Shown here: positions 1,960 to 28,304 of the stretch, one piece after another
How positions within the stretch are numbered: the first letter of the stretch is position 1
How the letters are laid out: every line of letters starts with the position of its first letter
Program-made: the position numbers and the translations under genes
The notes under the pieces: generated by a model
The model's database searches: none
What the model saw: only the letters and a program-made list of their open reading frames with translations
What the model was told of the DNA's origin: nothing
Assembly: GCA_023480825.1 (NCBI GenBank)
Contig: JAMCWQ010000098.1
Span: 1-43,615, forward strand
DNA: 43,615 bases
Origin: Chloroflexota bacterium
GTDB taxonomy: Bacteria > Chloroflexota > Chloroflexia > JAMCWQ01
Direction of reading: 5' to 3'

Positions 1960-4900
1960 CTATCCCATGGGTCCCGCGCCATCGCCCTCTCCCTCCCACG
2001 CGCAGAGGTGCCCGAAGTCGCAATAGGTGCACCATGAGCCGCTCTGCCGGGGGAACAGGCCGGCGTCAATCCGCCCCGTTGTCTCTAGTACCTCGGCCTT
2101 GGTCTGCTCCAGCGCCTCGGGCCCGAAGCGCACGGTCACCGGCCGGCCATGCTGCAGATAGAACAATGTGCAGGACAGCTTGTCCTCCGGCACGCCCCAA
2201 ATTTCCCGGGCGGCAAGGGCGTAAATGCGAAGCTGCAGGTCATTTGCCGCCTGCTCTGGGGATGGGACGTACCGGCCGGTCTTGAAATCCACGATCTCCC
2301 ACGAACCGTCCGGCAAATGGTCCAGGCGGTCGATCCGCCCCCGGACTACCACCCCCCCGATCCTCAAGTTGAAGGGCTGCTCGACGTATTGAGGTCTTCG
2401 CCGGGCGTAGACGCTCTCGAGATAGCGATCGAACAGGGTTCGGCCGGCCGCGCCGAAGGCGCCTTCCAGCCACTCACCGCTCCCGGCCAGTTCATCGAAA
2501 TCCGCCTGTGTGGCCACTTGCTGCCCGAGGGCATGCCGGCGGATAAGCTCGTGGACATCTGTGCCTACGCTGGCCGCCGGCGAGGGCCGGGATGGTAGCC
2601 TGTCGATGTAGGCATAGCGGTACTTCGCCGGGCACTGCCGGTAGCAGGCGAGGGCCGAATAGCTGGCCACCCTCACCGGAGGTGGCTTCAGAGTCTCGAT
2701 AGTCCCAACCTCCGCTGTCACCGTGGCGATTATGCGGTCCGCCCCGGCCTTCAGCTCCTCCCAGTGGCCGTCCATGCCGGCACGGTCGACTGTGTCGTTC
2801 AGCCAGCGCCTGGCCGCCTCCTTGTCCAGCAGCAACTTCGACATCGACTCCTCACGAGTCTCCTCTCTACGCTCCTGTGACCGGGCGAGTATCTCGGGTT
2901 CGGGCCCTTCCACGCCCAGATCGTCTGCCAATCCGGTTTGGACCATTTCCTCCCAAAAGACCGAGGGCTCTTTCTCCTTCTTGGCCGTCCCATACCATCT
3001 AGCCCGTGAGAAGAACAGCTTGAATTGGGCGCGCGTGACTGCGACGTAGCACAGTCTCCGCTCTTCTTCCAGCTTTAGCGCTTTCAGGGCGTCTTTCACC
3101 CGCTTTTCTTCCCGCTTGAAGTCCTTCTCGGTCCGGCATCCGGCCAGATTCATAGAGGGGTAGGTAGCAGAGTCCGCTCGCAATCCCGGTGGCAGGTTGC
3201 AGTACTTATCGAGTGGGTTGGTGGACCTTGTGGGGAAATAACCTTTCACTAAGCCGGGGATGAATACGCAGGGAAACTCCAGACCCTTCGCCTGGTGGAC
3301 ACTCATCACCTTTACTGTGTTAGAGTCCTCATCCACCGGCCTAACTTCCCCTTCGATATCCTCAGATTCCACTGTGAACTTGACGTATTGGACAAAGGCG
3401 GAAAGGGAAGAGCGGGAATCGGCAAGCTGAAACTCCGCCGCCAGGTCCACCATCTTTTGTAAGTTCAGAAGGGCGATCTTGGAGGATGAGCTGGAGTCTG
3501 CTTCCAGCTCCCAGCGGTAGCCGGTCCTGTCCAAAATGTGAAGCGCCAGGCCGGGGATGCTCAACCGGTTCGCCTGCCGGGTGAAGTCGTCCAAGTCGTC
3601 GCGCAGGACCTGTAGGCGCTCCAACGCTTGCGGCGATAACTCGGGTATCTCCGAGACATGGGACAGGGCGTCGATCAAGGCCACCGGAGCGCTGATATCC
3701 TCTGCTTCCTCGGCCTCTTTCAGGGCCTTCTTCTTCCATTGTCCTAGGAAGAAGATGTCCCGGTCGGAAAGCCGGAAGCGAGGCGATATGAGGATACGGG
3801 CGAGGGCGATATTGTCTCCCGGATCCGTTATCACCATGAGATAGGAAAGGATGTCCTTTATCTCCGGCCGGTCGTAGAAGCCGGTGCCGCCGATTAGCTC
3901 ATATGGTATCCCGGCGGCATCCAAGGCTGCGGCTACGGCGGGGAACATCGCCCGCTTGCGGCAGAGCACAGCGAAGGCGCCCCAACCATGTTTGCGGTCG
4001 TCGAGACCCTCCGCCCAGGGCAGGAGGCTCTCGATTCTGCCGGCAATCCACTGGGCCTCGCTGGCACCCGTGGCAGCGACGTAGTGGCCCACTTCCGCCT
4101 GCCCGGTCGCATGGTGATACCCCAGCCGCTTCTCGTGCCTATTCTTGATGGGGTTGATCACCGCTTGCGCGAGATCGAGGATTGGCGGGTAGGATCGCCT
4201 GTTGGTGACGATCGTCGATTTGGCTACCTTGTGATCCCCGAAGACGCCCAATTTGTCGAAGTTGAGGATGTTGTCCACCATGGCGCCGCGCCACTGGTAG
4301 ATGGCCTGGTCGTCATCGCCGATCACTACGACATTTGGGCTCTCCTGGTTGATGAGAAGGCTCAGCAACGCGGCCTGAGCGGCATTGGTGTCCTGGTACT
4401 CATCGACGAAGATATACTTGAACCGCTCGAGGTAGCGCTGCCGGATGGCCGGACTCGAGAGGAATAGCTTCACCGGCAGCCGGAGCAGGTCCCCGAAGTC
4501 AAGGAACTCTCGCTCGCGTAGCCCCTCCTCATAGCGTACGTAGGCCGCCTGCACGTCGCGCCACTGGGCCAGGCAGCCCTCCCAATATCCCCTGGCATAC
4601 TCCGGAAGGCCGGAAGGGGTCTGGCTGTCGAGGTATTTCAGCAAATCCTCCGGCGCGACCATGTGGTCCTTGGCCTGGCCGAAGAAGTCGAGAAGATTGG
4701 AGAACACCGTGCTTACACTCAGGGAAATGTCGACGGCGTCGAATGTAAGGTCGTTGAACAGGCCGGTTAGCAGGTCCCACTGGACGCCGCGGGTGGCCAG
4801 GCGGTAGCCCGGATTGATGCCCAAGCGCACCAGATTCTCCCGCACGATCTGCTCGCCAAAGGAGTGAAAGGTGCTGATGTTTAGGGAGGATGCCGGCACA

Positions 4901-5190
4901 TCGATGCCGTCGCGGGTTAGAGCGGCCCGGACCCTTTCCGCCATCTCCCCGGCGGCCTTGTCGGTGAAGGTGAGGCCGAGGACACTGCCGGCGTCCGCTC
5001 TCTTCTCCCGGATGACGGCGATGAGCTTCTCGGTGAGCACGGTCGTCTTGCCGGTCCCGGCGCCCGCAATTATAAGTTGGGGCGGTAGGCACTCCACCGC
5101 CGCCGCCTGCTCAGGAGTGAAGATGATGGGGTTTGGCTTGTCGCCTTTCAATGATTCAGTCACATTGACCCTTCGCGCCTGGGTAGGCAC
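1960..5190 (-). CDS. UvrD/PcrA-family helicase fused to RecB/Cas4-like PD-(D/E)XK nuclease with Fe-S cysteine cluster (AdnAB/AddAB-like subunit)
   Basis: 1076 aa, GTG start (alternative GTG at 5163); Walker A 'GAGTGKT', 'VDEYQDTN', 'GDDDQAIYQWRGA', 'VMSVHQAKGLEF'; nuclease motif 'EIVDFKTG'; cysteines 'CYRQCPAKYRY' plus C-terminal 'CTYCDFGHLC'. Confidence 0.9.
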   Translation of the reverse strand: MPTQARRVNVTESLKGDKPNPIIFTPEQAAAVECLPPQLIIAGAGTGKTTVLTEKLIAVIREKRADAGSVLGLTFTDKAAGEMAERVRAALTRDGIDVPASSLNISTFHSFGEQIVRENLVRLGINPGYRLATRGVQWDLLTGLFNDLTFDAVDISLSVSTVFSNLLDFFGQAKDHMVAPEDLLKYLDSQTPSGLPEYARGYWEGCLAQWRDVQAAYVRYEEGLREREFLDFGDLLRLPVKLFLSSPAIRQRYLERFKYIFVDEYQDTNAAQAALLSLLINQESPNVVVIGDDDQAIYQWRGAMVDNILNFDKLGVFGDHKVAKSTIVTNRRSYPPILDLAQAVINPIKNRHEKRLGYHHATGQAEVGHYVAATGASEAQWIAGRIESLLPWAEGLDDRKHGWGAFAVLCRKRAMFPAVAAALDAAGIPYELIGGTGFYDRPEIKDILSYLMVITDPGDNIALARILISPRFRLSDRDIFFLGQWKKKALKEAEEAEDISAPVALIDALSHVSEIPELSPQALERLQVLRDDLDDFTRQANRLSIPGLALHILDRTGYRWELEADSSSSSKIALLNLQKMVDLAAEFQLADSRSSLSAFVQYVKFTVESEDIEGEVRPVDEDSNTVKVMSVHQAKGLEFPCVFIPGLVKGYFPTRSTNPLDKYCNLPPGLRADSATYPSMNLAGCRTEKDFKREEKRVKDALKALKLEEERRLCYVAVTRAQFKLFFSRARWYGTAKKEKEPSVFWEEMVQTGLADDLGVEGPEPEILARSQERREETREESMSKLLLDKEAARRWLNDTVDRAGMDGHWEELKAGADRIIATVTAEVGTIETLKPPPVRVASYSALACYRQCPAKYRYAYIDRLPSRPSPAASVGTDVHELIRRHALGQQVATQADFDELAGSGEWLEGAFGAAGRTLFDRYLESVYARRRPQYVEQPFNLRIGGVVVRGRIDRLDHLPDGSWEIVDFKTGRYVPSPEQAANDLQLRIYALAAREIWGVPEDKLSCTLFYLQHGRPVTVRFGPEALEQTKAEVLETTGRIDAGLFPRQSGSWCTYCDFGHLCAWEGEGDGAGPMG

Positions 5191-5217
5191 ATATTACACC
5201 GCCTATTGTGAGCTTGC

Positions 5218-5328
5218 AGTGTCCGCTCCCGATGGTCGTCTCTTTGTCCTAGCTGACCCTCATCCCCCTGGCCCCCTTCTCCCTTTGCGAAGGGAGAAAG
5301 GGGGAAACAAACACTACTGACGGACACT
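5218..5328. repeat. TIR-bounded palindromic element (AGTGTCCG ... CGGACACT) with internal hairpin
   Basis: AGTGTCCG at 5218-5225, CGGACACT at 5321-5328, near-perfect hairpin CCCCCTTCTCCCTT-TGCG-AAGGGAGAAAGGGGG at 5272-5304. Confidence 0.6.
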
Positions 5329-5356
5329 AGTAATGCTTTCACCTCATCACCCCCAA

Positions 5357-5386
5357 CCCCTCTTCCCCTTCGAAGGGGAAGAGGGG
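5357..5386. repeat. Perfect 30-bp palindrome
   Basis: CCCCTCTTCCCCTTC|GAAGGGGAAGAGGGG, 15-bp arms, no loop; followed by a related hairpin near 5406-5435 (CCTCTTCCCC...GGGGAAGAGG). Confidence 0.85.
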
Positions 5387-5593
5387 GGTGCCTTCGTCCT
5401 GGTTCCCTCTTCCCCTCAGTATTGGGGGGAAGAGGGTTAGGGAGTTAGGGGGCGTGACCGATAAAGGGCTGGGGTTTGGGGGTGAAAGGGCCACTCCATT
5501 CAATTATTAGTGTCATCCATATTGCCGGCCTGGCGGCCGGCGGTCAGAATAAATTCCGACCCACAGGGCGTGCCCCTTTGACCCCTTGTCCCC

Positions 5594-8500
5594 TCACTCC
5601 TCCTCCCCATCCGTGCACAGCCATGTCCACTCACACGTGCGGCAGGGGTTCTTCTTCAGCCACTCCATTTCCTTGAGGTCCAACTGGCCTCCCCATGTCT
5701 CGACGATGCGCGAGTGGGGAGGGAATAGCTCATCCAAAATCCCGTCGGACAGGCGCTGCAGCTTCCCGGAAAGCGCCTCGCGTATCCCCTCGCCAGGAGA
5801 ATAGCTGCGCTTCCAGTCCGCTCCCAAGCTCTCTACACCCAAGTAGAGGTAGCTGACCAGCGAAACCACTCCGAGCTGCGACAATTCGGGGCAGCTTTCG
5901 GCTGCCAGGGCATAGATCGCCAGTTGCAGATCCTCTTCTGCCTCCGCTCTACTCATTACGCTGCTGCTGGTCTTGTAGTCTATTATCTCCAGCTCGCCTT
6001 CCGGGAGCCGGTCGATGCGGTCGATACGGCCGGTCATCGTATGGCTCTGGAATGGGAAGGTGAATTGCGTCTCCACCCGGAGCGTGTCTTCATACGGGTA
6101 CTTCAGGAAATATCTCCTGAGCTGATCCTCTGATTTCTTGCGGGCCTGCTTGGCGATGGGCCGGAAGGGAAAGGCGTCGTCGCGCCAGCACTGGTCCAGC
6201 AGCTTCAGCAGTCGCTCTTCGGAGGCCTCTTGCGGCCCCTCGGGATTGTGGTAGGATTCCAGCACTGCGTGCATTACGCGTCCCCGCTCGGCTTGCGGCG
6301 AGGTGGTGGCGGCCAGCCGCCAGAAATACTGGAACTTGTAGCGCAGCGGGCACAGCCTGTAGAGCGCCAGCTGGCTGGCCGAAAGATAAAGCCGGCCGGA
6401 TGGGCAAGGGGAGTTCGGACAATCCGTGGTCTCGGTGTTCTCCCACCAGCACTTTGGCTGAGAGGCCATCGCACCGTCCAAAGCCAGGATTCCGTACACT
6501 CCCTGCGCACGAACCAAGGAATCATCCGCGGCCAGCCCCCTCCTGAAGAACACCTCGGCCTCACGGGCATTGAGCGGGCGGACAAATTCCGCAGGCTCCT
6601 CGGAGATTTTCTCCGCGTCTGGCGATGCGGCTGCTTCCTCAAAGAAGCGCGAGGGAGCGCTGTTGTCCTTGCTGGGTGCGGCGGTGGAGCTATAGCTAAG
6701 GTAGCAGCGGCTCTTGGCCCTCGTCAGCCCTACATAGAACAGGCGTCTCTCCTCTTCGTAGTAGCGTTGCTCCCGGGTCTGTCCGGCATCTTCCATTCTC
6801 TGCAGCAGAACGGGGTCGGCAATCTCTTTCGGGGAGTAACGGCCGGGGAAGGCGCCCTCGCTGAGGCCGGGCAGGAAGACACAGTCCCATTCCAGCCCCT
6901 TGGCCTGGTGGAGCGTCATGATGTTGACCAAGTTGGTGAGCTGGTCGACCGGGTCCGCCAGGGGGACGTCGGCAAACCGGCCCTCCTCCACCATGACCAA
7001 ATAGGCGCTAACGCCGGTTTCCGGTTGCCTCCCGGAAAAGCGCTCCACGTCCTCGATGAACCGGCTGATATTAGCCAGAGCTTCACGCCTGGCTATTTCT
7101 TCAGCCGTGTTCTTGTACCTGGCCAAGCAGAGACCGGCGAAATAGGGGATGGTTGTCCAAATGGCGAAAGCCACTTCCGCCGGGCTATCGAGCTTCCTCT
7201 CACGAAGGAATGCCAGATGGCCGGTGAACGTCTTCGCTTTCTCGATGTCGGCGGCGCCGGCCGCGCTGTCCTCTAATTCGCCCTGAAGGTACTCGTAGAG
7301 GCTCTTCCTGGCCCGCGCCGCTTCGCGCTGCAGCAGGCGAATCGCAAATGGACCGGCTCCGCATAGATCGGACTGGAGCAGGCGCACCAAGCCCGCGGAG
7401 TCGACTTCCTCTGCGGCAAGGAACGCCATGAGGTCGAGTACCGTCCTGACCAGTGGGTGGTTGTAAAGCTCTCCGGTGCCGCCGCTCAAACGGACCGGCA
7501 CGCCCGCCGCCTGCAGTTCATCTCTTATGAGCCCGGCCAGCGGTCCCTTCACCGAGCGGAAGAGAACGGCTACCTGGTTGTATCTCTGCTCCGGACCGGC
7601 AAGCTCGATTATTTTGCCGGCTATCCAGTTCGCCTCGTCTGCATAGTGGGGAAAGAAGCGGCATTCCACCGGCTTTTCGATAGGATCATTCCCCTCCCCG
7701 GCACTGATGAGGTTCTTGGCGAGCCGGTAGGCGTTGCGCTCGATTACGGAGCGCGCCGTCTCCACGATGCCCCGGCAAGAGCGGTAGTTGGTTCGCAACT
7801 CGATAGTCTCCGCACCATACCGTTGATCAAAGCTCAAGATGTTCTCCACCGTTGCGCCCCGGAACCCGTGGATAGACTGGTCATCGTCGCCGACCACGCA
7901 GATATTGCCGCGGCCCTGCTGGAGCCGGAAGACGATCTGGTCCTGAGCGTAGTTTGTGTCCTGATACTCGTCGACCAGGATGTAGCGGAAGCGCTCCCGG
8001 AGTTCGGCGAGCGCGGCCGAGCCTTCCTCTAGTAGATCAACCGTCCGGGCGATCACACCGCCATAGTCGATAAAGCCGTGGCTGCGCACATGATCGAGGT
8101 AATAAGCATAGAAGTCGATTATCTCCGGCCAGTCTTCGCGATTCGTCTCTTGGCGTAAGGTGGATGGAGTGTGCAGATTCTCCTGCGCCCGGAGGATGAA
8201 ATCGAAGACCTCCTGCACGAATCCATCCTTACCCAGGACATCCCGGTAATGCGGCCAGAGTTCGGGCAGTTGGGACTTCAGCAAGTCCTTGACTAGGACC
8301 CACTGCTCAGTGGCTACGAGAAGCTCGGGTGGGTTCTTGTAGCCGAGGTCCTGAAAGTGGTCCCTCACAACCCCGAAGCAGAAGCCATGGAAGGTGCTCA
8401 CTGCGAGGCTGGAATAGCTGATTTGGAGGCGCAGCGCCACGCGGTTGCGCGTTTCCTCCGCGGCCTTGCGGGAGAAGGTGAGGGCGAGGATGTTCTCCGG

Positions 8501-8857
8501 TTTGGCCCTCCCGGTCTCGATCAGGTGGGCTATCCGCTCCACGATGACCATGGTCTTGCCCGTCCCTGGCCCCGCCACGATGCGTAGAGCCCCCCCGGTG
8601 TGCCGCACCGCCGCCAGTTGGTCGGGGTTGAGGAGGGTGGACGTGCTGAATCCATTGCGGGGACAACCGGCCCGCTCGGCCATGCCATCGCAGTCGGTGT
8701 TTACCGGTGAGCGTAGGGGAGGTGCCTTGTGCCCTCCCGTTTGGCCCGGCTCACGGTTGTCTGTTGCTTCCCTGCTGGTAGCGTGAGGGGCCGTCTTCGT
8801 AGGGGAAGGGCTTGTCCCTTCCCGTTCGCTAGTCGTCGCCTCGTCTTCAGGATTCAT
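5594..8857 (-). CDS. Second UvrD/PcrA-family helicase-nuclease fusion with Fe-S cysteine cluster (AdnAB/AddAB-like subunit)
   Basis: 1087 aa; 'GPGTGKT', 'VDEYQDTNYAQ', 'GDDDQSIHGFRGA', 'IMTLHQAKGLEW'; nuclease 'EIIDYKTSSS'; 'YRLCPLRYKF' plus 'CRTCEWTWLC'. True start may lie downstream, because the first ~70 aa are low-complexity and overlap REP-like repeats. Confidence 0.9.
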   Translation of the reverse strand: MNPEDEATTSEREGTSPSPTKTAPHATSREATDNREPGQTGGHKAPPLRSPVNTDCDGMAERAGCPRNGFSTSTLLNPDQLAAVRHTGGALRIVAGPGTGKTMVIVERIAHLIETGRAKPENILALTFSRKAAEETRNRVALRLQISYSSLAVSTFHGFCFGVVRDHFQDLGYKNPPELLVATEQWVLVKDLLKSQLPELWPHYRDVLGKDGFVQEVFDFILRAQENLHTPSTLRQETNREDWPEIIDFYAYYLDHVRSHGFIDYGGVIARTVDLLEEGSAALAELRERFRYILVDEYQDTNYAQDQIVFRLQQGRGNICVVGDDDQSIHGFRGATVENILSFDQRYGAETIELRTNYRSCRGIVETARSVIERNAYRLAKNLISAGEGNDPIEKPVECRFFPHYADEANWIAGKIIELAGPEQRYNQVAVLFRSVKGPLAGLIRDELQAAGVPVRLSGGTGELYNHPLVRTVLDLMAFLAAEEVDSAGLVRLLQSDLCGAGPFAIRLLQREAARARKSLYEYLQGELEDSAAGAADIEKAKTFTGHLAFLRERKLDSPAEVAFAIWTTIPYFAGLCLARYKNTAEEIARREALANISRFIEDVERFSGRQPETGVSAYLVMVEEGRFADVPLADPVDQLTNLVNIMTLHQAKGLEWDCVFLPGLSEGAFPGRYSPKEIADPVLLQRMEDAGQTREQRYYEEERRLFYVGLTRAKSRCYLSYSSTAAPSKDNSAPSRFFEEAAASPDAEKISEEPAEFVRPLNAREAEVFFRRGLAADDSLVRAQGVYGILALDGAMASQPKCWWENTETTDCPNSPCPSGRLYLSASQLALYRLCPLRYKFQYFWRLAATTSPQAERGRVMHAVLESYHNPEGPQEASEERLLKLLDQCWRDDAFPFRPIAKQARKKSEDQLRRYFLKYPYEDTLRVETQFTFPFQSHTMTGRIDRIDRLPEGELEIIDYKTSSSVMSRAEAEEDLQLAIYALAAESCPELSQLGVVSLVSYLYLGVESLGADWKRSYSPGEGIREALSGKLQRLSDGILDELFPPHSRIVETWGGQLDLKEMEWLKKNPCRTCEWTWLCTDGEEE
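8713..8739 (-). repeat. REP-like hairpin, minus orientation
   Basis: GTAGGGGAGGTGCCTTGTGCCCTCCCG; reverse complement matches the family GGG..GGGACAAGCC..CCCTAC. Confidence 0.55.
8799..8824 (-). repeat. REP-like hairpin, minus orientation
   Basis: GTAGGGGAAGGGCTTGTCCCTTCCCG; same family; stem GGGAAGGG/CCCTTCCC. Confidence 0.65.
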
Positions 8858-8860
8858 AGT

Positions 8861-9346
8861 TCAGAGCTCATAGACCAGAGATCCAGCATAGCGGTAGCCT
8901 CTCCAATCCTCGGCCAGCCCACGGCGGACCGGGTTGTTTAGGACATAGGCTATCGCTTCCCCGAGGTCCTCGTCGTCGCGGAGAAAGTGATCCCAAAAGC
9001 TTCTTTGCCAAAATGCGCCGGTTACTCCGCATTGCCAAGATGCTCTCTGGGCAAGATTTTTGTACTGCCCGACAAAGGTTATGATGTCACATGTGGGTGA
9101 TGCCTCAGTAACGAGATGCACATGATCGGGCATGACACAGTAAGCATAGACTGGGACGGCCGTTCGCTCGGCATGGGCCGACAGCGTGTCGACAGCAGCT
9201 TGCGCCACTATTGGTGATCGAAAGACAGGAAGCTGGTCTTTGACGGCTATCGTTATGGAGCAGATAGCGCCGGCAATCCGATATGTATCCTCATCGAGTC
9301 TGATTCTCCTACGGTTGGGAAGGGATACATTATGTTCGTGTTGCAC
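8861..9346 (-). CDS. REP-associated tyrosine transposase (RAYT), IS200/Y1 HUH family
   Basis: 161 aa; 'YAYCVMPDHVHLVTEA' (HUH motif), 'FVGQYKNLAQRA', 'FWQRSFWDHFLRDDEDLGEAIAYVLNNPVRRGLAEDW' are the standard RAYT signature. Confidence 0.9.
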   Translation of the reverse strand: MQHEHNVSLPNRRRIRLDEDTYRIAGAICSITIAVKDQLPVFRSPIVAQAAVDTLSAHAERTAVPVYAYCVMPDHVHLVTEASPTCDIITFVGQYKNLAQRASWQCGVTGAFWQRSFWDHFLRDDEDLGEAIAYVLNNPVRRGLAEDWRGYRYAGSLVYEL

Positions 9347-9391
9347 TATCGAGACGCTCCCTCTGCGCGCTGCAGCAATAATTCTGAAGTA

Positions 9392-9419
9392 GCCCGCGCT
9401 TTTCTATCCCCCATGTCCA
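9392..9419 (+). repeat. 28-bp inverted duplicate of an internal yhaN-like gene segment
   Basis: GCCCGCGCTTTTCTATCCCCCATGTCCA, exact reverse complement of 9835-9862 inside the ATPase CDS. Confidence 0.95.
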
Positions 9420-9420
9420 G

Positions 9421-9447
9421 CGGGCGGGGACAAGCCGCCGCCCCTAC
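9421..9447 (+). repeat. REP-like hairpin, plus orientation
   Basis: CGGGCGGGGACAAGCCGCCGCCCCTAC; same family as 8713, 8799, 1889 and 22894-23001. Confidence 0.65.
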
Positions 9448-9458
9448 GTTTCAAGGTT

Positions 9459-9504
9459 GCCGGCCTGGCGGCCGGCGCCCCGATAAATCGGGACCTACAG
9501 GGTC
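9459..9504 (+). repeat. Second dispersed palindromic repeat (GCCGGCCTGGCGGCCGGC + CCCGATAAATCGGG)
   Basis: GCCGGCCTGGCGGCCGGCGCCCCGATAAATCGGGACCTACAGGGTC; partial copies at 5524-5570, 22621-22660 (reverse) and 39541-39592. Confidence 0.75.
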
Positions 9505-9514
9505 ACCTTCCTCG

Positions 9515-11677
9515 TCACCCTCCTGCCGCGGGTAGGGTGATCACCTGGTCGGCGAAGTGATCGTATTGGTCTGAGCAGGTGAAGAGCAGAACCTGGTACC
9601 CTTGCGAAATCTCCTTCAGCAGCTCCATGGCCCTCTGCCTCCGACCGGCGTCAAAGGTAACAAATGGATCGTCGAGCAGAATAGGCGGCTTGCGGCCGTT
9701 CAGGACCAAGCGCATCAGTCCCAACCGGGCAGCCAGGTAGAACTGGTCGATGGTCGCCCGGCTGAGAGCGGTGATAGGCACCGGCCCGCCACTGTCCGGA
9801 GAGACGACGCTGATAGACAAGGTGTTCCGGTCGATGGACATGGGGGATAGAAAAGCGCGGGCCATCCTCTCTACATGTTGCCCGACTTCCGCCTCCAAGG
9901 CCACGGTGGCGGATACCATTGTCTCCGAGTGCGCCTGCCGGATTCCTTCGATGGCCAGCTCCACAACGCGCTTGCGCCGCATGAGGATGTCGAGCCGGTG
10001 TTGTAGCTCTCCCGCTTTCTCCTCCAGCGTGGTCAGCTCCTCGGGGTCCAACTTCGCGGTGTCGATGGCCCCTTTCAGACCCGAGATCTCGTCGCGCAGG
10101 GAGCTTTGCTGCCTTTGGAGTCCACTCAAGTCCATTTTCAGCCGGCCCAGAACACCGGCCGGGTCGGAGTCCTGTCCGGCGGCTCCACTGCTCTCGTCGA
10201 AAACGTAGCGCCGTATTGGCTGGAGGAGCGTCGACCGCAACTGCAGCAGGGCGTCCCGCCGCTGCTGGATCTCCAGAGCTAATAAGGAATGCTTTTCCTC
10301 GAAGCGCTTCCAAGGCGACGCCCAGGCAGCCGGCGGGGTATCTGGAGGTATTCCAAGGGTAGCGGCAAGCTCGGTGCGCGCCGCCGCCAGAGTGGCAGTA
10401 GCGCCCAAATAGCGATTCCGGCCCTCGGCCAATTCATTTGCAGACGAGAACCCGTACTTCTGTAGCACTTGGTCCAGCGCCGTCCTCGTGCCAGCCACGG
10501 CGCGCCGGTGCTCGTCGAGCTCGCTTTCCAGGGCCCGGGCCACCAGGTATTCTCGCATCTGCAGCGCCGAATAGACGACGCCGCAGAGCCCGGCGATGGC
10601 TAGTATTGCCAGGTAAGGGGCGGCGAAGAACCCGGCCATCCCGGCGACTAGCAGGGCGATGCTGACGGCCAGTAGAGCCGGGGCGATCCGCCCCCGCCCG
10701 CCACCCAGTTTCCGGTATCGCTGCTCCTGCTTTTCCAGCAATTGCTCCTCGGCCTTGAGGCGGGCGGCCAAATCACCTGCTTGGGAGAGATCGGGCTCTG
10801 CTTTGGCGAAGGCTGCCAGCTCCTCGAGCTCCCGGGTCGCGCTTCGTATGCGGTCGCACTGCTCGGTGGCGAGCCGGAACCGGGCATATTTCTCCATCAA
10901 TTGCCCAATTTCGTCCTTCAGGTCGACGGCTCGCCGGTTGGCTTGCAGCATCTCTTCTTGGTGAGCTGTCTCCTCTTCGATGCGGCTCATTTCCTGGAGC
11001 TTGTCCGCCAGCCGGGCTTTCTGGCCGTCAAGGGCGGCGAGTTGGGCGGAAAGCTCCTGGCGACGGTTTTCCACCTGGTCCAGCTCATCCCGGAGCTGTC
11101 TTACCGGACCGGGGTTCTTCGCGGGAGAAGACAAACCCACGGAGAGAGAGCGCAAATACTCCTCCAGCTTCTGGACCGCCGAAGACGAGCTTACGTCGTT
11201 CCCTCCGGTGACGGTCGCTTGCAGCCGGTCACTCAGCTCTCGCCGCCCTTCGGCAACATCCGGCAGCTCGTCGTGAGCCACGCAGGCGGTGCTGGAAAAT
11301 AAGGCTTTCGTGGAGCATCCAAGCCAGTCTGCCAGCCGGGAGGCTATAGCCTTGGCATCGGTCAAGGGGGTGGGCAAAGCCTGCCCCGATAGCGACTGGA
11401 CGTGATTTTCGAAATCACGCTGCAGCAGGTAAGTCTCGCCATCCACCTCAAAATCCAGCGCCAGCTCATACATGTGCTCCGACTGCCATTTCATCAGCTC
11501 GCGCAGCGTCCGGTTGCTCGATTTCGCGTTCTCGAAGAGGCAGGTCTGGATCGCGGCGTGGACAGTGGATTTCCCGGCCTCGTTGGGACCTTTGATGATG
11601 TTGATGCCCGGCCCGGCGGAGGTTTCCAACTCTCCGAAGCGCTTGAAGCGTTTTGCAGTTAGGCGGCGGATTATCAC
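9515..11677 (-). CDS. YhaN/SbcC-like AAA ATPase with coiled coil and central transmembrane segments
   Basis: 720 aa; Walker A 'GPNEAGKST'; hydrophobic centre 'IAPALLAVSIALLVAGMAGFFAAPYLAILAIAGLCGVVYSAL'; C-terminal 'PILLDDPFVTFDAGRRQRAMELL' (Walker B); 4-bp overlap with the phosphoesterase gene. Confidence 0.85.
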   Translation of the reverse strand: MIIRRLTAKRFKRFGELETSAGPGINIIKGPNEAGKSTVHAAIQTCLFENAKSSNRTLRELMKWQSEHMYELALDFEVDGETYLLQRDFENHVQSLSGQALPTPLTDAKAIASRLADWLGCSTKALFSSTACVAHDELPDVAEGRRELSDRLQATVTGGNDVSSSSAVQKLEEYLRSLSVGLSSPAKNPGPVRQLRDELDQVENRRQELSAQLAALDGQKARLADKLQEMSRIEEETAHQEEMLQANRRAVDLKDEIGQLMEKYARFRLATEQCDRIRSATRELEELAAFAKAEPDLSQAGDLAARLKAEEQLLEKQEQRYRKLGGGRGRIAPALLAVSIALLVAGMAGFFAAPYLAILAIAGLCGVVYSALQMREYLVARALESELDEHRRAVAGTRTALDQVLQKYGFSSANELAEGRNRYLGATATLAAARTELAATLGIPPDTPPAAWASPWKRFEEKHSLLALEIQQRRDALLQLRSTLLQPIRRYVFDESSGAAGQDSDPAGVLGRLKMDLSGLQRQQSSLRDEISGLKGAIDTAKLDPEELTTLEEKAGELQHRLDILMRRKRVVELAIEGIRQAHSETMVSATVALEAEVGQHVERMARAFLSPMSIDRNTLSISVVSPDSGGPVPITALSRATIDQFYLAARLGLMRLVLNGRKPPILLDDPFVTFDAGRRQRAMELLKEISQGYQVLLFTCSDQYDHFADQVITLPAAGG

Positions 11678-12792
11678 CGGAGCACCTCCCGGCCTTGGAG
11701 AAGGGCGACCCCCAGCCGCAGCGCTTCTTCATATTCAGAGGCCTCTCCGGCGCTCGCCGAGGCAATGCGTTGTTGCATGAGCCGCACATAGCGGCCCACC
11801 ACTGTCTCTGGAGCGAAAGAGTTGATATCGACCTCGCTCAGGGCGGCATGGGAATGGTCCACTATTCTCAGAGCGAAGAACTCATCCTCCAGCGCTCTCT
11901 CCATTTCCTCAACATCCAACTGAAAGTCGAGAGCCTGCAATCCCTCGAGGCTGACCTCCAGTATGAGGCTTCTATCGGCCAGAGCGGCGATGGACTCGCG
12001 AACCGCGGCGGGCGATATTGCCGTATCCAGGGGTATTCGCAGGCGCTCGAAACGGCGCGACCCAACTTGAACTGGCTGGATAGAGACATCGCCGCTACGC
12101 TCGATATTCACAAGGACCACCTTCCCCGCTCCTGCTTGATCGAGATCGATCACTTCCGGCGCGCCGGAGTAGCAGGCTTTGGTGGAGCCACAGGTGAATT
12201 CGGAGAAGGAGTGCCAATGGCCAAGGGCCAGGTAATTCAGGCCGCTGGCTGCCACCTCCTCCCGGGTGACCATTAGGCTGTCACCTTCGACCCGGTCCGG
12301 AATATGGAACGAGCAATGCGCGATCCCGATTTGCAGCGCCGCCTCTTCCAGACGAAGGGACCGCAGGGGGCTGACCCCGGCTCCATCGGGCGGAAGCAAG
12401 CCGTATACGACGGCATCCAGCTCGGGAAGACGTAGGGTACTGGATTCGCCAGCGAGGATCCTGAGCGCCGGGCAGTGCCCGGCGAAATCGTAGGCATTGT
12501 AGACGGAACGCGGTTCGATGGGGTCGTGAGTGCCGGGAATAAGGCAGGTAGTGATGCCGGCATCTCCAACCTTCCTAAGAATTCTTATTGCTTCTTGCAC
12601 ATAGAAGGGAGGCGGGTTGTTGGAATCGAAGAGGTCGCCGGCAATAATGAATAGGTCGGAATGCTGGGCGATGGCCAGGCTGGCGACCTGCTCGAAGGTG
12701 CGCAACAGCTGGCGGCGATGCTCCTGTCCCTTGTCCCCAAGGCTGAGAAATTTGGCGCCGAGATGAACGTCGGCGGTATGGAGAATCCTCAT
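11674..12792 (-). CDS. YhaO/SbcD-like metallophosphoesterase (DNA repair exonuclease family)
   Basis: 372 aa; 'MRILHTADVHLGAKF', 'IIAGDLFDSNNP', 'IPGTHD', 'LALGHWHSF' Mre11/SbcD motifs. Confidence 0.9.
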   Translation of the reverse strand: MRILHTADVHLGAKFLSLGDKGQEHRRQLLRTFEQVASLAIAQHSDLFIIAGDLFDSNNPPPFYVQEAIRILRKVGDAGITTCLIPGTHDPIEPRSVYNAYDFAGHCPALRILAGESSTLRLPELDAVVYGLLPPDGAGVSPLRSLRLEEAALQIGIAHCSFHIPDRVEGDSLMVTREEVAASGLNYLALGHWHSFSEFTCGSTKACYSGAPEVIDLDQAGAGKVVLVNIERSGDVSIQPVQVGSRRFERLRIPLDTAISPAAVRESIAALADRSLILEVSLEGLQALDFQLDVEEMERALEDEFFALRIVDHSHAALSEVDINSFAPETVVGRYVRLMQQRIASASAGEASEYEEALRLGVALLQGREVLR

Positions 12793-13044
12793 CGGTTGAT
12801 CTCCGCGACGAAAGATGGAAGTTTGCCCTTATGAGGGTACGGCCACGCTGCCCGAGACGAGCATCCTCACCGTCGGGGCCGCTCCGCGAGTATAGCACCG
12901 GAGGGGGGAAAGTCAATAGAAGGCCGGTTCCCCTCTTACCCAATGCTGTCTTCCGCCCCGTAACCCGGCGGCCCCCCTCTGGACGGGCCAGCATGACACA
13001 AGCCGCACATCCGTTGTATATTTGATGGGGAGGAGTTCCGAATC

Positions 13045-14769
13045 ATGTCCAACGCGGAGATCTCCGAGATCCTGAACCGCATCGCCGAGTTGCTGGAGAT
13101 CAAGGGGGAATCGCGCTATCGCATCTACGCCTACCAGCGCGCCGCCGAAGCAATAGCCAGCGAGCCGGTCGATGCCCGAACCTTGATGGAACAGGGCAGA
13201 CTTGAGAATGTGCCGGGCATCGGGAAAAGCATCGCCGCCAAAATCACCGAACTGCTGAAGACCGGCCACTTAAAGTATTATGAGGACCTGCAGGCCGGTT
13301 TGCCCAGCGCCATAGTGCACTTGATGGAGGTCCCCGGCATCGGCCCCAAGACGGCCATGAGGCTCTACAATGAGCTGGGTATAACCTCCGTTGCAGAGCT
13401 GGAGGCGGCGGCTAGAGCCGGTCGAATAAGCGGCCTGCCGGGCTACGGTCCCAAAACGGAAGAGAACATCCTTCGCGATGTCCACAACCTGCGGCTGCAT
13501 GAGGAGCGCAGGCTGTTGGGAGAAGTGCTTCCGGTGGTCGCGGATATGATCGCCGCGCTCCGGTCCGTTCCCGGCATACGCAATATCGTGCCGGCGGGGA
13601 GCATCCGGCGAATGGAGGAAACCGTCGGGGACATCGACCTCGTAGCCACTGCCGGCGACCCGGCCAAAGCCGTCCAGGCTTTTGTGAAGTTGCCGCAGGT
13701 GCGCGAGGTGCTGGGGCAGGGCCCAACCAAGGCAACGGTTGTCCTTCGCAATGGCATACAGGCGGACATACGGGTTGTTCCCGATGAGGCCTTCGGCTCG
13801 CTGCTGCAGCACTTCACCGGCAACAAAGCGCACAACATCATCCTCCGGGAATACGCTAAGTCCAAGGGCTATAGCATTAGCGAGTACGGGATCACCGACC
13901 TCAGGACCGGCACGATCAAGCCCTATGCTGACGAAAATGAGGTTTATGAGTCTCTGGGGCTGCAGCCCATGCCGCCGGAGATCCGGCTGGGCACCAATGA
14001 AATAGAGCGAGCGGCCAGGCACGATATTCCCCGGCTGGTGACACTCGCCGACATCAAGGGCGACCTGCACGTCCATTCCGACTGGAGCGATGGAGTCGCC
14101 TCGATTGAAGACCTGGCTCGAGGCGCCAAGGCCATGGGCTACGAATACATAGCCATCTGCGATCATTCGGCGAGCCTGGCCATCGCCAACGGACTCAGCG
14201 CGGAGCGGCTGCGAAAGCAAATAGACACCGTTCGCCGGCTGAACGAAGCGGATCCCTCGTTCCGTATCCTCACCGGCATCGAGGCCAATATTCGCGGCGA
14301 CGGTACAGTGGAGGTGCCCGAGGAACTGCTGGGCGAAATCGATGTTGTGGTGGCCAGCATTCATTCAGGGCTCAGCCAGTCTTCTGAGAAGATAACGACC
14401 CGGCTGACCAAGGCTATCCATCAACCCTTTGTGGCCGTAATCGGCCACCCCACGGGCAGAATTCTCGGACACCGCGAGCCCTCAATGGTCGATCTGGGTG
14501 CGATCTTCGCCCAAGCCGCCGGGCAGAGAACTGCCATGGAGATCAATGGGATTCCGGACCGGCTGGACCTGCGGGACGTGCAGGCTCGCCAGGCGATGGA
14601 GGCGGGGGCCATTCTCTCCACGAATTCCGACGCCCATTCAGTTGACCAATTATCGCAGATGCTGTACGCTGTGGCAGTAGCGCGGCGTGGATGGCTCGAA
14701 GCTCGCCACATTTTGAACACCAAGCCGCTGGGCGAGCTGCTGGAATGGCTGCGAGCCCGCCGCAAGTGA
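13045..14769 (+). CDS. polX: DNA polymerase/3'-5' exonuclease PolX (Pol beta-type + PHP domain)
   Basis: 574 aa; N-terminal HhH 'NVPGIGKSIAAKI', 'PGIGPKTAMRLY', 'GSIRRMEETVGDIDLVAT'; PHP 'GDLHVHSDWSDG', 'ICDHS', 'STNSDAHS'. Confidence 0.95.
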   Translation: MSNAEISEILNRIAELLEIKGESRYRIYAYQRAAEAIASEPVDARTLMEQGRLENVPGIGKSIAAKITELLKTGHLKYYEDLQAGLPSAIVHLMEVPGIGPKTAMRLYNELGITSVAELEAAARAGRISGLPGYGPKTEENILRDVHNLRLHEERRLLGEVLPVVADMIAALRSVPGIRNIVPAGSIRRMEETVGDIDLVATAGDPAKAVQAFVKLPQVREVLGQGPTKATVVLRNGIQADIRVVPDEAFGSLLQHFTGNKAHNIILREYAKSKGYSISEYGITDLRTGTIKPYADENEVYESLGLQPMPPEIRLGTNEIERAARHDIPRLVTLADIKGDLHVHSDWSDGVASIEDLARGAKAMGYEYIAICDHSASLAIANGLSAERLRKQIDTVRRLNEADPSFRILTGIEANIRGDGTVEVPEELLGEIDVVVASIHSGLSQSSEKITTRLTKAIHQPFVAVIGHPTGRILGHREPSMVDLGAIFAQAAGQRTAMEINGIPDRLDLRDVQARQAMEAGAILSTNSDAHSVDQLSQMLYAVAVARRGWLEARHILNTKPLGELLEWLRARRK

Positions 14770-14806
14770 TGTAAGATACTCGTCCTCAGAAGAAGGGACC
14801 CCCATC

Positions 14807-16570
14807 TTGGGCGACGATTTTGCCCGGAGTCTGACAGGCCATACGCTCTGGTCTCCCGCCGCCGGGACCGCGGAGACCGGACCGGAACTGATGGTGCCCA
14901 AGGGGCTGCGAGGCCAACCTTTCGTGGTGGTGGATCTAGAGACCACAGGACCGAGTGCGCTGCTGGACCACGTCATCGAGGTAGCGGCCCTACGCGTCGA
15001 GGGAGGCCGGGTGGTCGACCGTTTTGAGAGCCTCGTGGACCCCGGCGTCTCCATCCCGCCATTCATCACCTCACTTACCGGCATAGATGACGACATGGTG
15101 CAGGGCAAGCCCAGGTGGCACGAAATCGCGCCCTCGTTATTCGCCTTCCTCGCCGGGGCGATCTTCGTGGCTCATAACGCGGGATTCGATCACGGCTTCC
15201 TGAAACAGGAGTTTCGCCGGCTGAAAATGACCTACGACAGCCAGCGGCTGTGCACCGTCCGCTTGTCCCGGCGCGTCTTTCCGGGGCTGGGCAGCTACTC
15301 GCTGGACTCGATTATCTCCCACCTCGGCATCAACTGCTCCAGCCGCCACCGGGCGGGCGGCGACGCCGATGCGACCTGTGAGCTGCTGCTAAGGATACTG
15401 TCGGAGATGTCCGGATTTGGCATCGAGGAGGCGGAGGATTTGCTCCGCTTCCAGGAGACGCCCAGCCGGAAATGCGCCGATATGCGCGATGGCGAGCGTC
15501 TGGTGGCCCATCTGCCTTCCGCCTGTGGCGTGTACATGATGAAGGACGAGCAGGGCCATGTCATCTACGTCGGCAAGTCCACGAACATTCGCCGGCGGGT
15601 GCGTGAGCATTTCCGGGCAGAGACCAACGGGCAGCGGCGGCTGCGCAAGCGCCTGCGCTTTGTCAAGCAGGTGGACTACATCGAGACCGCTTCGGAGCTC
15701 GAGGCGCTGCTTGTGGAATCCCGCCTTATCAAGCACTGCCTGCCGGAGGGCAACAAACTCCAGCGAGATTACGAATCCTACCCCTTCATCAAGATCAATA
15801 TCAATGAGAAATTCCCGCGGGTGGAGTTCACCCGCGAGCCGCAGGACGATGGCGTCCGCTACTTCGGGCCCTTCACGCAATCCTCTCTTGTCGACGCCGC
15901 GGTAGACGCCGTGCGGGATGAATTCCGCCTGCGCACCTGCGCCCGGCGCTTTGGCCAGAAGGAAGGTAGCTGCGCCCGGCGGGATATGGGCCGCTGCCTG
16001 GCGCCGTGCTCCGGCGAAATCAGCCGGGAAGAGTACATGGAACGGATCGAAGAGGCCATGCGTCTTCTCTCGGGCCACGGGAGCACCTATCTACAGACCA
16101 TGGAAGAGCGGATGAATACCTTTGCCGAGGAATGGCGCTTCGAAGAGGCGGCCGCGCTTAGGGACCGCATAGCCGCTTTGCGGGCCCTGGTGCAGGTGCA
16201 AGAGAAGCTCAACTCCGTCGGCTGTTACGACCTCGTGGCGCTGATGCCCTCGGCGCGGTCCGGTTGGATCCAACTATTCCTGATCCGCCAGGGCCGGCTG
16301 GCGATGCAGGTGGCCTGCCCGCAGGACATCGAGCCGGAAGACGTGCGAAGGCTTTTGCACCAAGTGTATTCGCCGGAGCACCGGACCATGGCCATCTCCA
16401 AGGACGAGGTGGACGAGATGCATATCATCGCCGACTGGCTGCGCCGCGGCGGCGAGGCCCTCCGCAAAATCCCCATTCGCCCCGAACCCGAAAGTCTGGA
16501 AGAGGTGGTGGAAGAAGTGATCCGCGAGCTCAAGAAGGGTGATGCCGCGCTGGCGGAGACTGGCGACTGA
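14807..16570 (+). CDS. DEDDh 3'-5' exonuclease fused to GIY-YIG (UvrC N-terminal-like) nuclease
   Basis: 587 aa, TTG start; DEDDh motifs 'VDLETTG', 'HNAGFD', 'HRAGGDADAT'; GIY-YIG 'GVYMMKDEQGHVIYVGKSTNIRRRVREHF'; UvrC-type cysteine cluster 'CARRFGQKEGSCARRDMGRCLAPC'; UVR-like motif 'FEEAAALRDRIAAL'; no C-terminal UvrC RNase H/HhH region. Confidence 0.9.
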   Translation: MGDDFARSLTGHTLWSPAAGTAETGPELMVPKGLRGQPFVVVDLETTGPSALLDHVIEVAALRVEGGRVVDRFESLVDPGVSIPPFITSLTGIDDDMVQGKPRWHEIAPSLFAFLAGAIFVAHNAGFDHGFLKQEFRRLKMTYDSQRLCTVRLSRRVFPGLGSYSLDSIISHLGINCSSRHRAGGDADATCELLLRILSEMSGFGIEEAEDLLRFQETPSRKCADMRDGERLVAHLPSACGVYMMKDEQGHVIYVGKSTNIRRRVREHFRAETNGQRRLRKRLRFVKQVDYIETASELEALLVESRLIKHCLPEGNKLQRDYESYPFIKININEKFPRVEFTREPQDDGVRYFGPFTQSSLVDAAVDAVRDEFRLRTCARRFGQKEGSCARRDMGRCLAPCSGEISREEYMERIEEAMRLLSGHGSTYLQTMEERMNTFAEEWRFEEAAALRDRIAALRALVQVQEKLNSVGCYDLVALMPSARSGWIQLFLIRQGRLAMQVACPQDIEPEDVRRLLHQVYSPEHRTMAISKDEVDEMHIIADWLRRGGEALRKIPIRPEPESLEEVVEEVIRELKKGDAALAETGD

Positions 16571-16603
16571 TTCTTGGCACATCTCTTGCGTCCACTACTC
16601 GCC

Positions 16604-17023
16604 ATGAAAGCGTATGTGTACATCGACGGCGACGGTGTGGGAGACAAGCTCGAAGGATACATCATCAACAACGACCTCCAGAGAGCGGCGGAGCTCAGCA
16701 CCCGAATAAACGAGAACCTAAAGGAGATGATCGCCACTCTCCTGGCAAGAGATGTGGAGATCTTCTTTGCAGGCGGAGACAACGTCTTCGCTTGCCTGGA
16801 CCTGGACCGCGAGCTACTGCACCGGCTCTTGAACTCATTCCTCAATTGGACGGGCATCACGGCTTCCGCCGGGGTGGGGACGACACCCGCCGAAGCCTTC
16901 CTGGCCTTGCGGGCCGCCAAGGCCTTGGGTGGTGGCCGGCTCATTGTCCGTGGACTGGACGGCAGCGAAGAAAGAGACCGCACCGGCCAGGCCATCCATG
17001 CGGGGGCGGACGAGGCGCCGTAG
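16604..17023 (+). CDS. Stand-alone GGDEF/Cas10-palm protein, mCpol-like (minimal CRISPR polymerase) candidate nucleotide second-messenger synthase
   Basis: ATG at 16604 preferred over TTG at 16574; 139 aa 'MKAYVYIDGDGVGDKLEGYIINNDLQRAAELSTRINENLKEMIATLLARDVEIFFAGGDNVFACLDL...GITASAGVGTTPAEAFLALRAAKALGGGRLIV': D-G-D motif, then GGD about 50 residues later, then SAGVG..EA...L..AK as in palm-domain cyclases. Confidence 0.7.
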   Translation: MKAYVYIDGDGVGDKLEGYIINNDLQRAAELSTRINENLKEMIATLLARDVEIFFAGGDNVFACLDLDRELLHRLLNSFLNWTGITASAGVGTTPAEAFLALRAAKALGGGRLIVRGLDGSEERDRTGQAIHAGADEAP

Positions 17024-17109
17024 ATCGCGTAACGAGAGAGGCCCTCAGACAGCCCCTTTGACAGGACAAAATTCCGATGATGACTGCCTGACAGGAGGAG
17101 ACAACCAGC

Positions 17110-17196
17110 AAGTCCCCCTGATAAGGGGGATTTAGGGGGTTTTATGCCTGTGCTAAGCCCTAACCCCCCTAGCCCCCTCTTGTCAGGGGGGACTTA
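17110..17196. repeat. MITE-like element with terminal palindromes (AAGTCCCCCTGATAAGGGGG ... CCCCCTCTTGTCAGGGGGGACTT)
   Basis: Inverted termini AAGTCCCC(C)CTGA; related copy at 23158-23233. Confidence 0.65.
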
Positions 17197-17271
17197 GATC
17201 CGTGCGCCGCTGCATCTTGCCCGCGGCCACTGGCTTCTGGCTACTCGTCTTCGCCCCTTGACCCGTTTCCT

Positions 17272-17838
17272 TCACTTCCCCTTCAGCTTCTTCCCGATCT
17301 CAAATGCCTTGCCGAGGTGCTCGCCGATACGCCAGTAGTTGTCGTCATGGTAGGTGAAGATTATGGGCTGCATCTTCAGCGGGTCCGGTAGCTTGTTGGT
17401 GAGGTAGCGCTCTTCGCTATAGACTGCGACGATTTCTCCGATGAATGACTCGTGCCTCCCCAGTTGCAGCGTCTGGATCAACCGGCACTCGAGATTCAGG
17501 GCACATTCCTCGATCATCGGCGCCGTCTCCAACTTGCCATAGAAGACCTTGAACAACGACGACTTGTCCACCTTGTGGCCGGACACCAGGCCGCAGTAGT
17601 CGGTAATCTCCGCCATCTCCGCTGTGGGAATGTTGACACTGAACGTCCCGTTCTCGTGAATGCCCCGGTTTGTGTAATGGGGTTTGTTGCTGGAGACGGA
17701 GATCGCCGGCGGCTTGTCGTCCATAATGCCACAGTAGGCGACCGTTAGAAACGTCGGCTTGCCATCGACGTTGGCTCCCACCAGGACGGTGGGCATCGGG
17801 TAGAGAAAAGTATTCGCGCCGATCTCGATTTTGGCCAT
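17272..17838 (-). CDS. Flavin reductase-family protein
   Basis: Start likely ATG 17838 ('MAKIEIGANTFLYPMPTVLVGANVDGKPTFLTVAYCG...'); FMN-binding split barrel 'NGTFSVNIPT', 'CRLIQTLQLGRHESFIGEIVAV'. Confidence 0.85.
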   Translation of the reverse strand: MAKIEIGANTFLYPMPTVLVGANVDGKPTFLTVAYCGIMDDKPPAISVSSNKPHYTNRGIHENGTFSVNIPTAEMAEITDYCGLVSGHKVDKSSLFKVFYGKLETAPMIEECALNLECRLIQTLQLGRHESFIGEIVAVYSEERYLTNKLPDPLKMQPIIFTYHDDNYWRIGEHLGKAFEIGKKLKGK

Positions 17839-23961: not shown

Positions 23962-26900
23962 TCAGACCAGCCCTTCGCTACAGACGATCTTCGGTGTGGC
24001 CTTGCTCGATTCGCCGTTCTGGTGGCGGACCCAGTCCTTCATGTTGTGCTGCAGGTAAAGGTTCTTCAGGTGCTCGTATAGAGCTTCGCCGTTCACCCCG
24101 TTTCGCCGCAGGAGATTCAGCTCCTTCTTGACGGCTTCGGTTGGGGATGCCCGCAGCGCTTGGTCCAGCAGGTTGATCATCTCCTTGCGGGCCTCGTCGT
24201 CCTCATTGGCGTACATTATGTGGAGTTCGCGCAGGACGTATTTCTGGCCTGAGGTGTGGGAGACGCTGAAGGACTTGTCATTCTGCCGCTGCTGCACGTC
24301 CGCATCGAAGGCGTGCTTCACCTTCATCACCGCCGCGTTGTAGCCGCCGGGCCGCGGCTCGCTGGGCGTGTAAGGCCCGCACTTGATCGTCCCCAGCACC
24401 CTGGGTATATCCTCGGAAACGATCTCGCCGCTTTCCCCTACCAGGTACATCTTCAGGTACCTATCCGCCTGGCAGAAGACGAACATGCCCTTTTGGCTGG
24501 AGTACTTCGCCGAGCGGATGCCGTCCCGTAGGCCGGCGATGCGGGCGTATTCTTCGGGGTGGTCCCGCCTCAGCTCGCGCATTATCTCCTCGGCCTCGTT
24601 GAGGTCCAGGAAGTCCGCCTCATCCTCCCACATGCTGAGCTGGCCGCCGTTCTTCTTTTCGTAGATAGCGTACATCACCTCTTCATTCAGCCGCTCGCTG
24701 ACGTCGAGTATTTTCGCATCCTCCCCGATGGTGTCATGAATCTCTTGGATGCGGTTGTGCAGCTTCTCGTGCAGGTGCAGGTTCTGCTCGATGCCCAGCT
24801 CTGGCAGGAAGTTGAACCCGTACACCACTTCGTTCTCCGTTCCAATGCGGTCGATGCGGCCGAAGCGCTGGATCAGCCGGACGGGGTTCCAGTGCAAGTC
24901 GTAGTTCACAATCTTGTCGCAGTCCTGCATGTTGAGGCCCTCGGCCAGCACGTCGGTAGCGATTACCGTGTTCAGCTCCGGGCCGGGGTAGAACTCCCGA
25001 ATCTCGGCGTTGGCTTTGGGAGCGAAGCGGGCGACCACGCGGTCCTTGCTCTTCTCCCCACTGAAGATCACGTCGATGTCCTCTCTCTTGCCGTCCGGGT
25101 TCAGGTTATCGTAGAGGTAGCGGGCGGTGTCAGCGTACTCCGTGAAGATCAGCCGCTTGCCATCCTTCAGCGGCGATTGGGCCAGCCATTTCTTCAGGGT
25201 CTGAAGCTTGTCGTCCGCCTGCGGCGTTATGGGCTGGACCAGAGCGAACATTTCCTTGTAAAGCCGGATGTCCTGCTCGATATGGGCGCGGAGCCGCTCG
25301 ACGTCGAAATCTTCGATCCGGTACTTGCCGGACACTTCCGCCAGAGCATCCAAGAGGTCCGTTTGGTCATCGAAATCGGACTCGTACAGTATCATTTGCG
25401 CTTCTTCGCCGGCCGGGACGATGCCGGCATCGAGGGCCGCCACGAACTTCTCGTGAATGGCTTGCTGGCGGAGGACGGTTTCGCGGAAGGCGTAGACGCT
25501 GGATTCGAACCGCTTGAACAGGAGGATGCGGATCAGCCCCCGCAGGTTGAATCCGGCCCGCTGCAGACCGGCGTAGGGCTCCTTCTTGCGCTTGTCCGGC
25601 AGGACGTAGTTGTAGAGACCGTAGCGGGCGTAGGTCAGCTCATTCGGGGCGAAGTTGTTCGCAGCGTTTTGCCGCTCTTTGCCCATGTACGCCCGCAATT
25701 GCCGGTATATCCCCTGGTAGGTGCTTTCGATGCTGTATTCGATGGTCTCCAGCCGGCGGGCGGGGAAGAACTGGTGCTTGCCGCCGACCTCCACGTAGGC
25801 CTTCTTCTTGCCGGAGAGGTAATCATCGAAATCCGCTTCGGTCAGGTCCTTGTGAGTGCCGGCGTCTTTGCCGTACCAGCGCAGTATGTGGTTGCGGGTG
25901 CGGCGGATCAGGACGTTGGCCAGAAGGTCCGGCAGCTTGCGCTGTCCCTGCTCGATGAGCTTGAAGTACTCCTTTAGGTCTGCCGGCGAGATGGGCAGGT
26001 CCGTCTTGTCTTCGGGATGAAAGAGCTTCATCTGGTTGTAGACATCCAACGCCGACTTGTTCCGCGGCGTCGCGGTGAGGAAGCAGCATTTCTTGTCGCC
26101 GGCGCTCAGGAATTCCTGCAAAAGCTTGTAGCGCTGCGTGTCCTTATGGCGGAAGTTGTGGCTTTCGTCCACCAGCACGAAATCGCGGTCCCGGTACTTC
26201 TCAGTCCACAGGATGTTGGAGCCATCACCTTCCTGCAGATAGCCCATGGAGAGGACGCGGGCATGCAAATCGTAGCGCTCGTCATAGCGCTCCCACATGT
26301 TCACCAGCGGCGGGGGGCAGATGATGAGCGGGCGGGCCCGGCTGATCCGCTCGAAATGCTTCACGATGGCCGCGCCGATGTAGCTCTTGCCCAGACCGAC
26401 AACGTCGGCAATGAAGACGCCGCCGTAGTCCCGGATGATGCCCACCGCCTGCTTCACGGCCACCTTTTGGAACTCGGCCAGCTTGCGGGTGATCTCGTCG
26501 TCCCAGAGGATCTCCGGTTTGTCCGTGCCCTCGATCCGGTCATGGACGAGAGTGTAGAGCGTCTTCATGTAGATGTCGTACGGTGTCACCGGGGCCATCG
26601 CCCACGATTCCCGCATCTCGTACATCAGGGACTCGTCGAAATCCTGAGCATCGTTCCACAGCTCGTCGAACCAGCGGCAAAGCTCGTAGTAGTTGTCATT
26701 GCCGTGGACCACGACGTTCATCTCCGTGTTGTGGCTGAGGCCGGAAAGGGAAAGGTTCGAGGAGCCGACCACGGCGATGCCCTTTTCATCCCGCTGGAGC
26801 ACATTGCCGAAGAGGTCGTAGACGGGGCCGTAGCCGAAGATGTAGGCTTTGGCGTGCATGCGCCCCTTCGTATAGACGCGGACTTTGAGCCGCTTCTCGG

Positions 26901-27285: not shown

Positions 27286-27352
27286 AAAAGTTCTCCTAGG
27301 AGTCGATTTGCGGATGAGCCTTCGGCCTTACAAAATAACCTTGATATCCATA

Positions 27353-28303: not shown

Positions 28304-28304
28304 A

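Follow-up and report, generated by a model that had tools for sequence, protein, structure and literature searches.

A solitary mCpol-like nucleotide cyclase gene beside polX and a DEDDh-GIY-YIG nuclease gene in a Chloroflexota contig

The minimal CRISPR polymerase, mCpol, was reportedly proposed in a 2015 paper. That mCpols act through inhibitory signals is a recent finding, and in the described systems an effector accompanies the mCpol. According to the text of Sullivan et al. (PMC12657218), mCpol is coupled to S-2TM-beta, and CARF-2TM accompanies 40% of mCpol genes, with SAVED-2TM, HEPN and other 2TM partners being fewer. The text of Doherty et al. (PMC12657230) gives 295 mCpol loci, 109 of them in the Panoptes clade.

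Here we describe an mCpol gene in a 43,615-nucleotide stretch of a Chloroflexota genome (the window), where it is the last of three plus-strand genes:

12993..13022, plus strand: candidate sigma-70-like promoter match (10/12, consensus scan), upstream of polX
13045..14769, plus strand: PolX, an X-family DNA polymerase with a C-terminal PHP domain, 574 aa (NF006375; HHH_8, pol beta thumb and PHP in Pfam)
14807..16570, plus strand: DEDDh exonuclease, GIY-YIG and UVR protein, 587 aa (RNase_T, GIY-YIG, UVR)
16604..17023, plus strand: mCpol (minimal CRISPR polymerase) as a standalone protein of 139 aa (PF18182, NF033576, PDB, AF2, Foldseek, tree)

The ORF list and the sequence agree on these three genes and on gaps of 37 bp between polX and the nuclease gene and 33 bp between the nuclease gene and mCpol, as had been described in the original prediction, which was made from the sequence alone. 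The mCpol ORF gives 149 aa from a start at 16574 and 139 aa from the ATG at 16604; the latter is the better start because the mCpol family begins there. On the plus strand from polX to mCpol, a consensus scan found no promoter match inside the gene group and one weak terminator-like match, at 16548-16565, where the nuclease gene is about to end. The codon-position GC of mCpol resembles that of the polX and nuclease genes. Judged by these sequence features, co-transcription of the three genes is plausible. PolX scores 544 bits against NCBIfam NF006375 (cut-off 426, E 3e-163). The nuclease, whose motifs seem intact by sequence, matches RNase_T (3.1e-33), GIY-YIG (5.2e-10) and UVR (9.8e-8) in Pfam, and its NF005906 score of 486.2 bits (E 1e-145) lies slightly below the cut-off of 495.

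The product of 16604-17023 matches Pfam mCpol (PF18182) far more strongly than chance would allow, scoring 87.3 bits (E 1.2e-24; cut-off 26.4) over positions 1-111 of 114, and NCBIfam mCpol (NF033576) with 55.9 bits against a cut-off of 40 (E 5.9e-15). By sequence, its best PDB matches are the OptS/mCpol structures 9mnr and 9nwn (E 2e-11). An AlphaFold (AF2) model, for which the input alignment held 14 mCpol family members, reached a pLDDT of 90.3 and a pTM of 0.80, and Foldseek ranked 9pd0, 9mnr and 9nwn as its best PDB matches (target-normalised TM 0.84-0.87, rmsd 1.5-1.9), followed by Cas10 and, lower, by GCH III structures. The protein carries all of the motifs that had been pointed out from the sequence, namely IDGDGVG (residues 7-13), FAGGDN (55-60), SAGVG and the C-terminal EAFLALRAAKALGGGRLIV. 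The earlier call of an mCpol-like palm protein also held up in the two checks proposed for it: the best profile match was mCpol, well above Cas10, and the model fits the solved OptS/mCpol structures. Profile, tree and fold comparisons each give mCpol as the best match, and we regard this protein as a genuine mCpol and its family assignment as firm.

In a tree that included Chloroflexota Cas10 palms, the window protein grouped with the mCpols and apart from Cas10 (100/99). Within the mCpols it forms a long branch that belongs to no supported subclade and falls outside the 99/99 OptS group, a placement flagged as unsure. Its end branch amounts to 2.25 changes per column, and yet, of the 14 columns in which the 13 other alignment members show at least 80% conservation, it keeps all 14. 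Keeping these columns over such a branch suggests long purifying selection, and because the core is fully conserved, simple decay of mCpol is disfavoured. Exact-peptide scans of genome contigs, viral contigs, plasmids and phages found no close relatives. A three-member alignment, scanned against genome contigs, led to four distant loci; with Cas10 added, an alignment became too divergent to serve as a query. The viral contigs held no match to the Oscillatoria mCpol, and an Rfam search gave no match. Standalone mCpols are rare: across 400 Chloroflexota genomes and 158 genomes of the class, strong short matches occurred only in G000, G051, G027 and G114. Nearly all other Chloroflexota matches sit in ORFs of about 550-730 aa, presumably Cas10 by their length and, at one locus (L035), by Cmr neighbours as well. 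In the phylum of the Oscillatoria locus, strong matches were present in 7 of 386 genomes.

At every one of the 14 other mCpol loci with complete context, a CARF or 2TM-beta effector adjoins the mCpol or is fused to it, although two of the CARF calls are weak and one effector is broken. These loci, from Chloroflexota, Cyanobacteriota and Pseudomonadota, are a small sample found partly by mutual similarity, and 14/14 describes that sample rather than a frequency; L037, which ends at a contig edge, was left out. The partners are as follows:

CARF-TM partner (PADLOC CARF_m9--CARF_TM): L069, L103, L104, L106, L109, and L034 in frameshifted form
CARF-HEPN-mCpol fusion (PADLOC PDLC01967): L101, L102, L105
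CARF-like gene directly upstream of mCpol: L036 (E about 2e-5), L068 (weak, E 0.004)
Cap15/2TM-beta partner: L070, L071, L108

In L034 (8553-9742; G114, Chloroflexota), an intact mCpol is followed by a CARF-TM gene split by a frameshift, which may reflect decay of the effector or else an error in sequencing. In L036 (7451-8925; G051, same class), a 364-aa CARF-like protein, possibly a soluble CARF effector, is encoded 2 bp upstream of mCpol. L108 (4001-8357), on a conjugative Sulfitobacter plasmid, has a Panoptes-like mCpol and a 2TM effector near a CBASS-type DncV-like cyclase and a ThiF gene.

Compared with these systems, the window protein shares with Panoptes OptS (9mnr/9pd0/9nwn) the fold, about 30% identity, the catalytic aspartates, KpOptS-like base-recognition residues and the form of a standalone palm protein of about 14 kDa. 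However, an OptE/2TM-beta gene lies next to OptS and none lies beside the window mCpol, and the second motif is GGDN here but AADG in OptS. The intact CARF-TM pairs likewise contain a standalone PF18182 mCpol, but their CARF-TM gene is directly downstream, whereas the window has none. CARF-HEPN-mCpol proteins have a homologous mCpol domain with a GD-D/N second motif, although they are single fusions of roughly 500 aa and the window encodes the mCpol domain alone. The palm fold and the DGD and GGD-D/N motifs are also shared with the Cas10 (Csm1/Cmr2) palm, which differs in being part of a multi-domain protein rather than a 139-aa single domain.

The window genes scanned gave no match to 2TM-beta, CARF, SAVED or a further Cas10, in keeping with the original prediction that none was visible, and included neither an adjacent 2TM-beta/Cap15 effector nor an adjacent or fused CARF protein. 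In this genome assembly (1.57 Mb, 51% complete), searches targeted at CARF-TM, Cap15/2TM-beta (PF18153), CARF-HEPN-mCpol and Cas10, including that of type III CRISPR, returned only this mCpol. Because the genome is 51% complete, absence of an effector elsewhere is weak evidence. The orphan state of this mCpol is unusual, a description based on one locus and a half-complete genome. A hidden effector directly downstream was considered and rejected, as six-frame translation of 17024-17271 yielded no substantial ORF of family-like sequence. The stretch at 17100-17200 looks repeat-like by eye; no inverted repeat of at least 12 was found in 17020-17280, and one test motif from 17100-17200 was no commoner in the window than expected by chance.

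Residues D8 and D59 align with the catalytic D6 and D57 of KpOptS in the sequence alignment, and S32 and N36 align with its base-recognition residues S30 and N34 in the PDB alignment. As described in the text of PMC12657218, KpOptS activity requires the metal-holding D6 and D57, contacts to the base are made by S30 and N34, an S30N substitution favours 3',2'-cGAMP more and 2',3'-c-di-AMP less among the products, and the S30 position is highly variable across mCpol domains. Given these four matching residues, an adenine preference is expected, and the predicted product is most likely 2',3'-c-di-AMP.

We favor, as somewhat better than an even bet, the explanation that this is an active orphan mCpol cyclase whose effector acts in trans or has been lost, and whose repair neighbors are incidental. 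The enzyme would constitutively join two ATP molecules into a cyclic dinucleotide, working like KpOptS in homodimeric or tetrameric form, and its gene is probably the last, 3'-most one expressed from a transcription unit that begins with the housekeeping repair genes for PolX and the nuclease. It would have been orphaned from a CARF or 2TM-beta effector of its evolutionary past, and would either silence an effector encoded elsewhere, in the manner of Panoptes, or have outlived its lost effector. Direct support extends to the family, the fold, the catalytic residues, the lack of a partner among the scanned genes and the lack of a conserved repair neighborhood in the relatives available; activity, product, co-transcription and the trans action or loss of an effector are inferred. 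In the text of PMC12657218, OptS alone leaves growth unaffected and OptE alone is toxic, so that cells should tolerate a loss that strikes the effector before the mCpol. L034, with its intact mCpol and frameshifted CARF-TM gene, is a candidate parallel for such a loss. Both the trans-effector and the lost-effector version are compatible with the present data, although the searches of the half-complete assembly, which yielded no effector in trans, count against the explanation.

Two alternatives concern the protein itself. It could be a palm protein with another reaction, such as a GTP cyclohydrolase III-like nucleotide cyclohydrolase or a non-cyclising polymerase, and both a weak Pfam match to GCH_III, secondary to mCpol at 27.3 bits, and the GCH III structures in the fold search point that way. 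However, mCpol outscores GCH_III by 60 bits in Pfam and the OptS fold match is better by more than four orders of magnitude in E, and we consider a different chemistry quite improbable. A Cas10-Cmr2 palm2 secondary match (40.2 bits) would suit a palm domain broken off from Cas10, but the ORF is complete and family-length with a native start, and the tree, length and profile scores separate it from Chloroflexota Cas10 and led us to reject such a fragment. Nor does an assembly artefact fit a gene that lies mid-contig (43.6 kb) with a composition like that of its neighbors; a fragment or artefact is largely refuted, with almost no probability left to it.

The other alternatives concern what the cyclase acts on. 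The mCpol nucleotide might restrain or activate the DEDDh-GIY-YIG nuclease (or PolX) in a defense or damage-response module with the nuclease as effector. The shared strand, the short gaps free of plus-strand promoter matches, the similar codon-position GC, the intact nuclease motifs and the lack of any other candidate partner are all consistent with this coupling. However, linkage was absent in every mCpol and nuclease relative examined: polX and the nuclease were missing from 14 of 14 loci by tblastn (13 mCpol loci, including L037, and one Cas10 locus) and, judged from annotation, from L108 and L109, and neither mCpol nor polX lay within the flanks of about 1.5 kb around 29 class-level DEDDh-GIY-YIG homologues (31-36% identity). 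The original prediction had suggested a link to these neighbors and had named a neighborhood not conserved in relatives as a refuting outcome; the survey found no conservation in these relatives, class level being the closest among the 60 relatives listed, and at that distance a conserved linkage is not supported. Moreover, the alignment of the nuclease with an ordinary repair family spans its length, and no extra ligand-binding domain was recognised by Pfam or NCBIfam. The passages of PMC12657218 and PMC12657230 on mCpol partners name no association with polX or a DEDDh-GIY-YIG protein. A nuclease-effector module is rather unlikely, and it is doubtful that a constitutive cyclic dinucleotide acts on the nuclease and/or PolX to feed into repair or DNA-targeting defense as an arrangement fixed in this Chloroflexota lineage; any link of this mCpol to DNA repair is a hypothesis. 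We also consider it doubtful that the protein was repurposed as a general signalling cyclase for a non-defense c-di-AMP-type receptor. Its long solitary branch within the mCpol family, retained catalytic core and lack of a defense partner would agree with repurposing, but no receptor was identified and all other context-bearing mCpols are effector-linked.

A solitary, intact and divergent mCpol offers a test of trans action, of persistence after loss of a toxic partner, or of a new target. Were the nuclease link true, mCpol signalling would reach beyond the effectors described in the texts of PMC12657218 and PMC12657230.

Two further gene groups lie on the minus strand of the window. At 1960-12792, a divergent DNA-repair cluster oriented away from polX encodes an SbcC-like AAA protein, an SbcD-like phosphoesterase and two UvrD-helicase/PDDEXK proteins, and also holds a Y1 transposase-family gene. 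At 23962-31397, about 7 kb from mCpol, a PLD-SNF2 helicase (PADLOC C3a139), a 316-aa protein and a type IIG restriction-methylase likely constitute a defense island.
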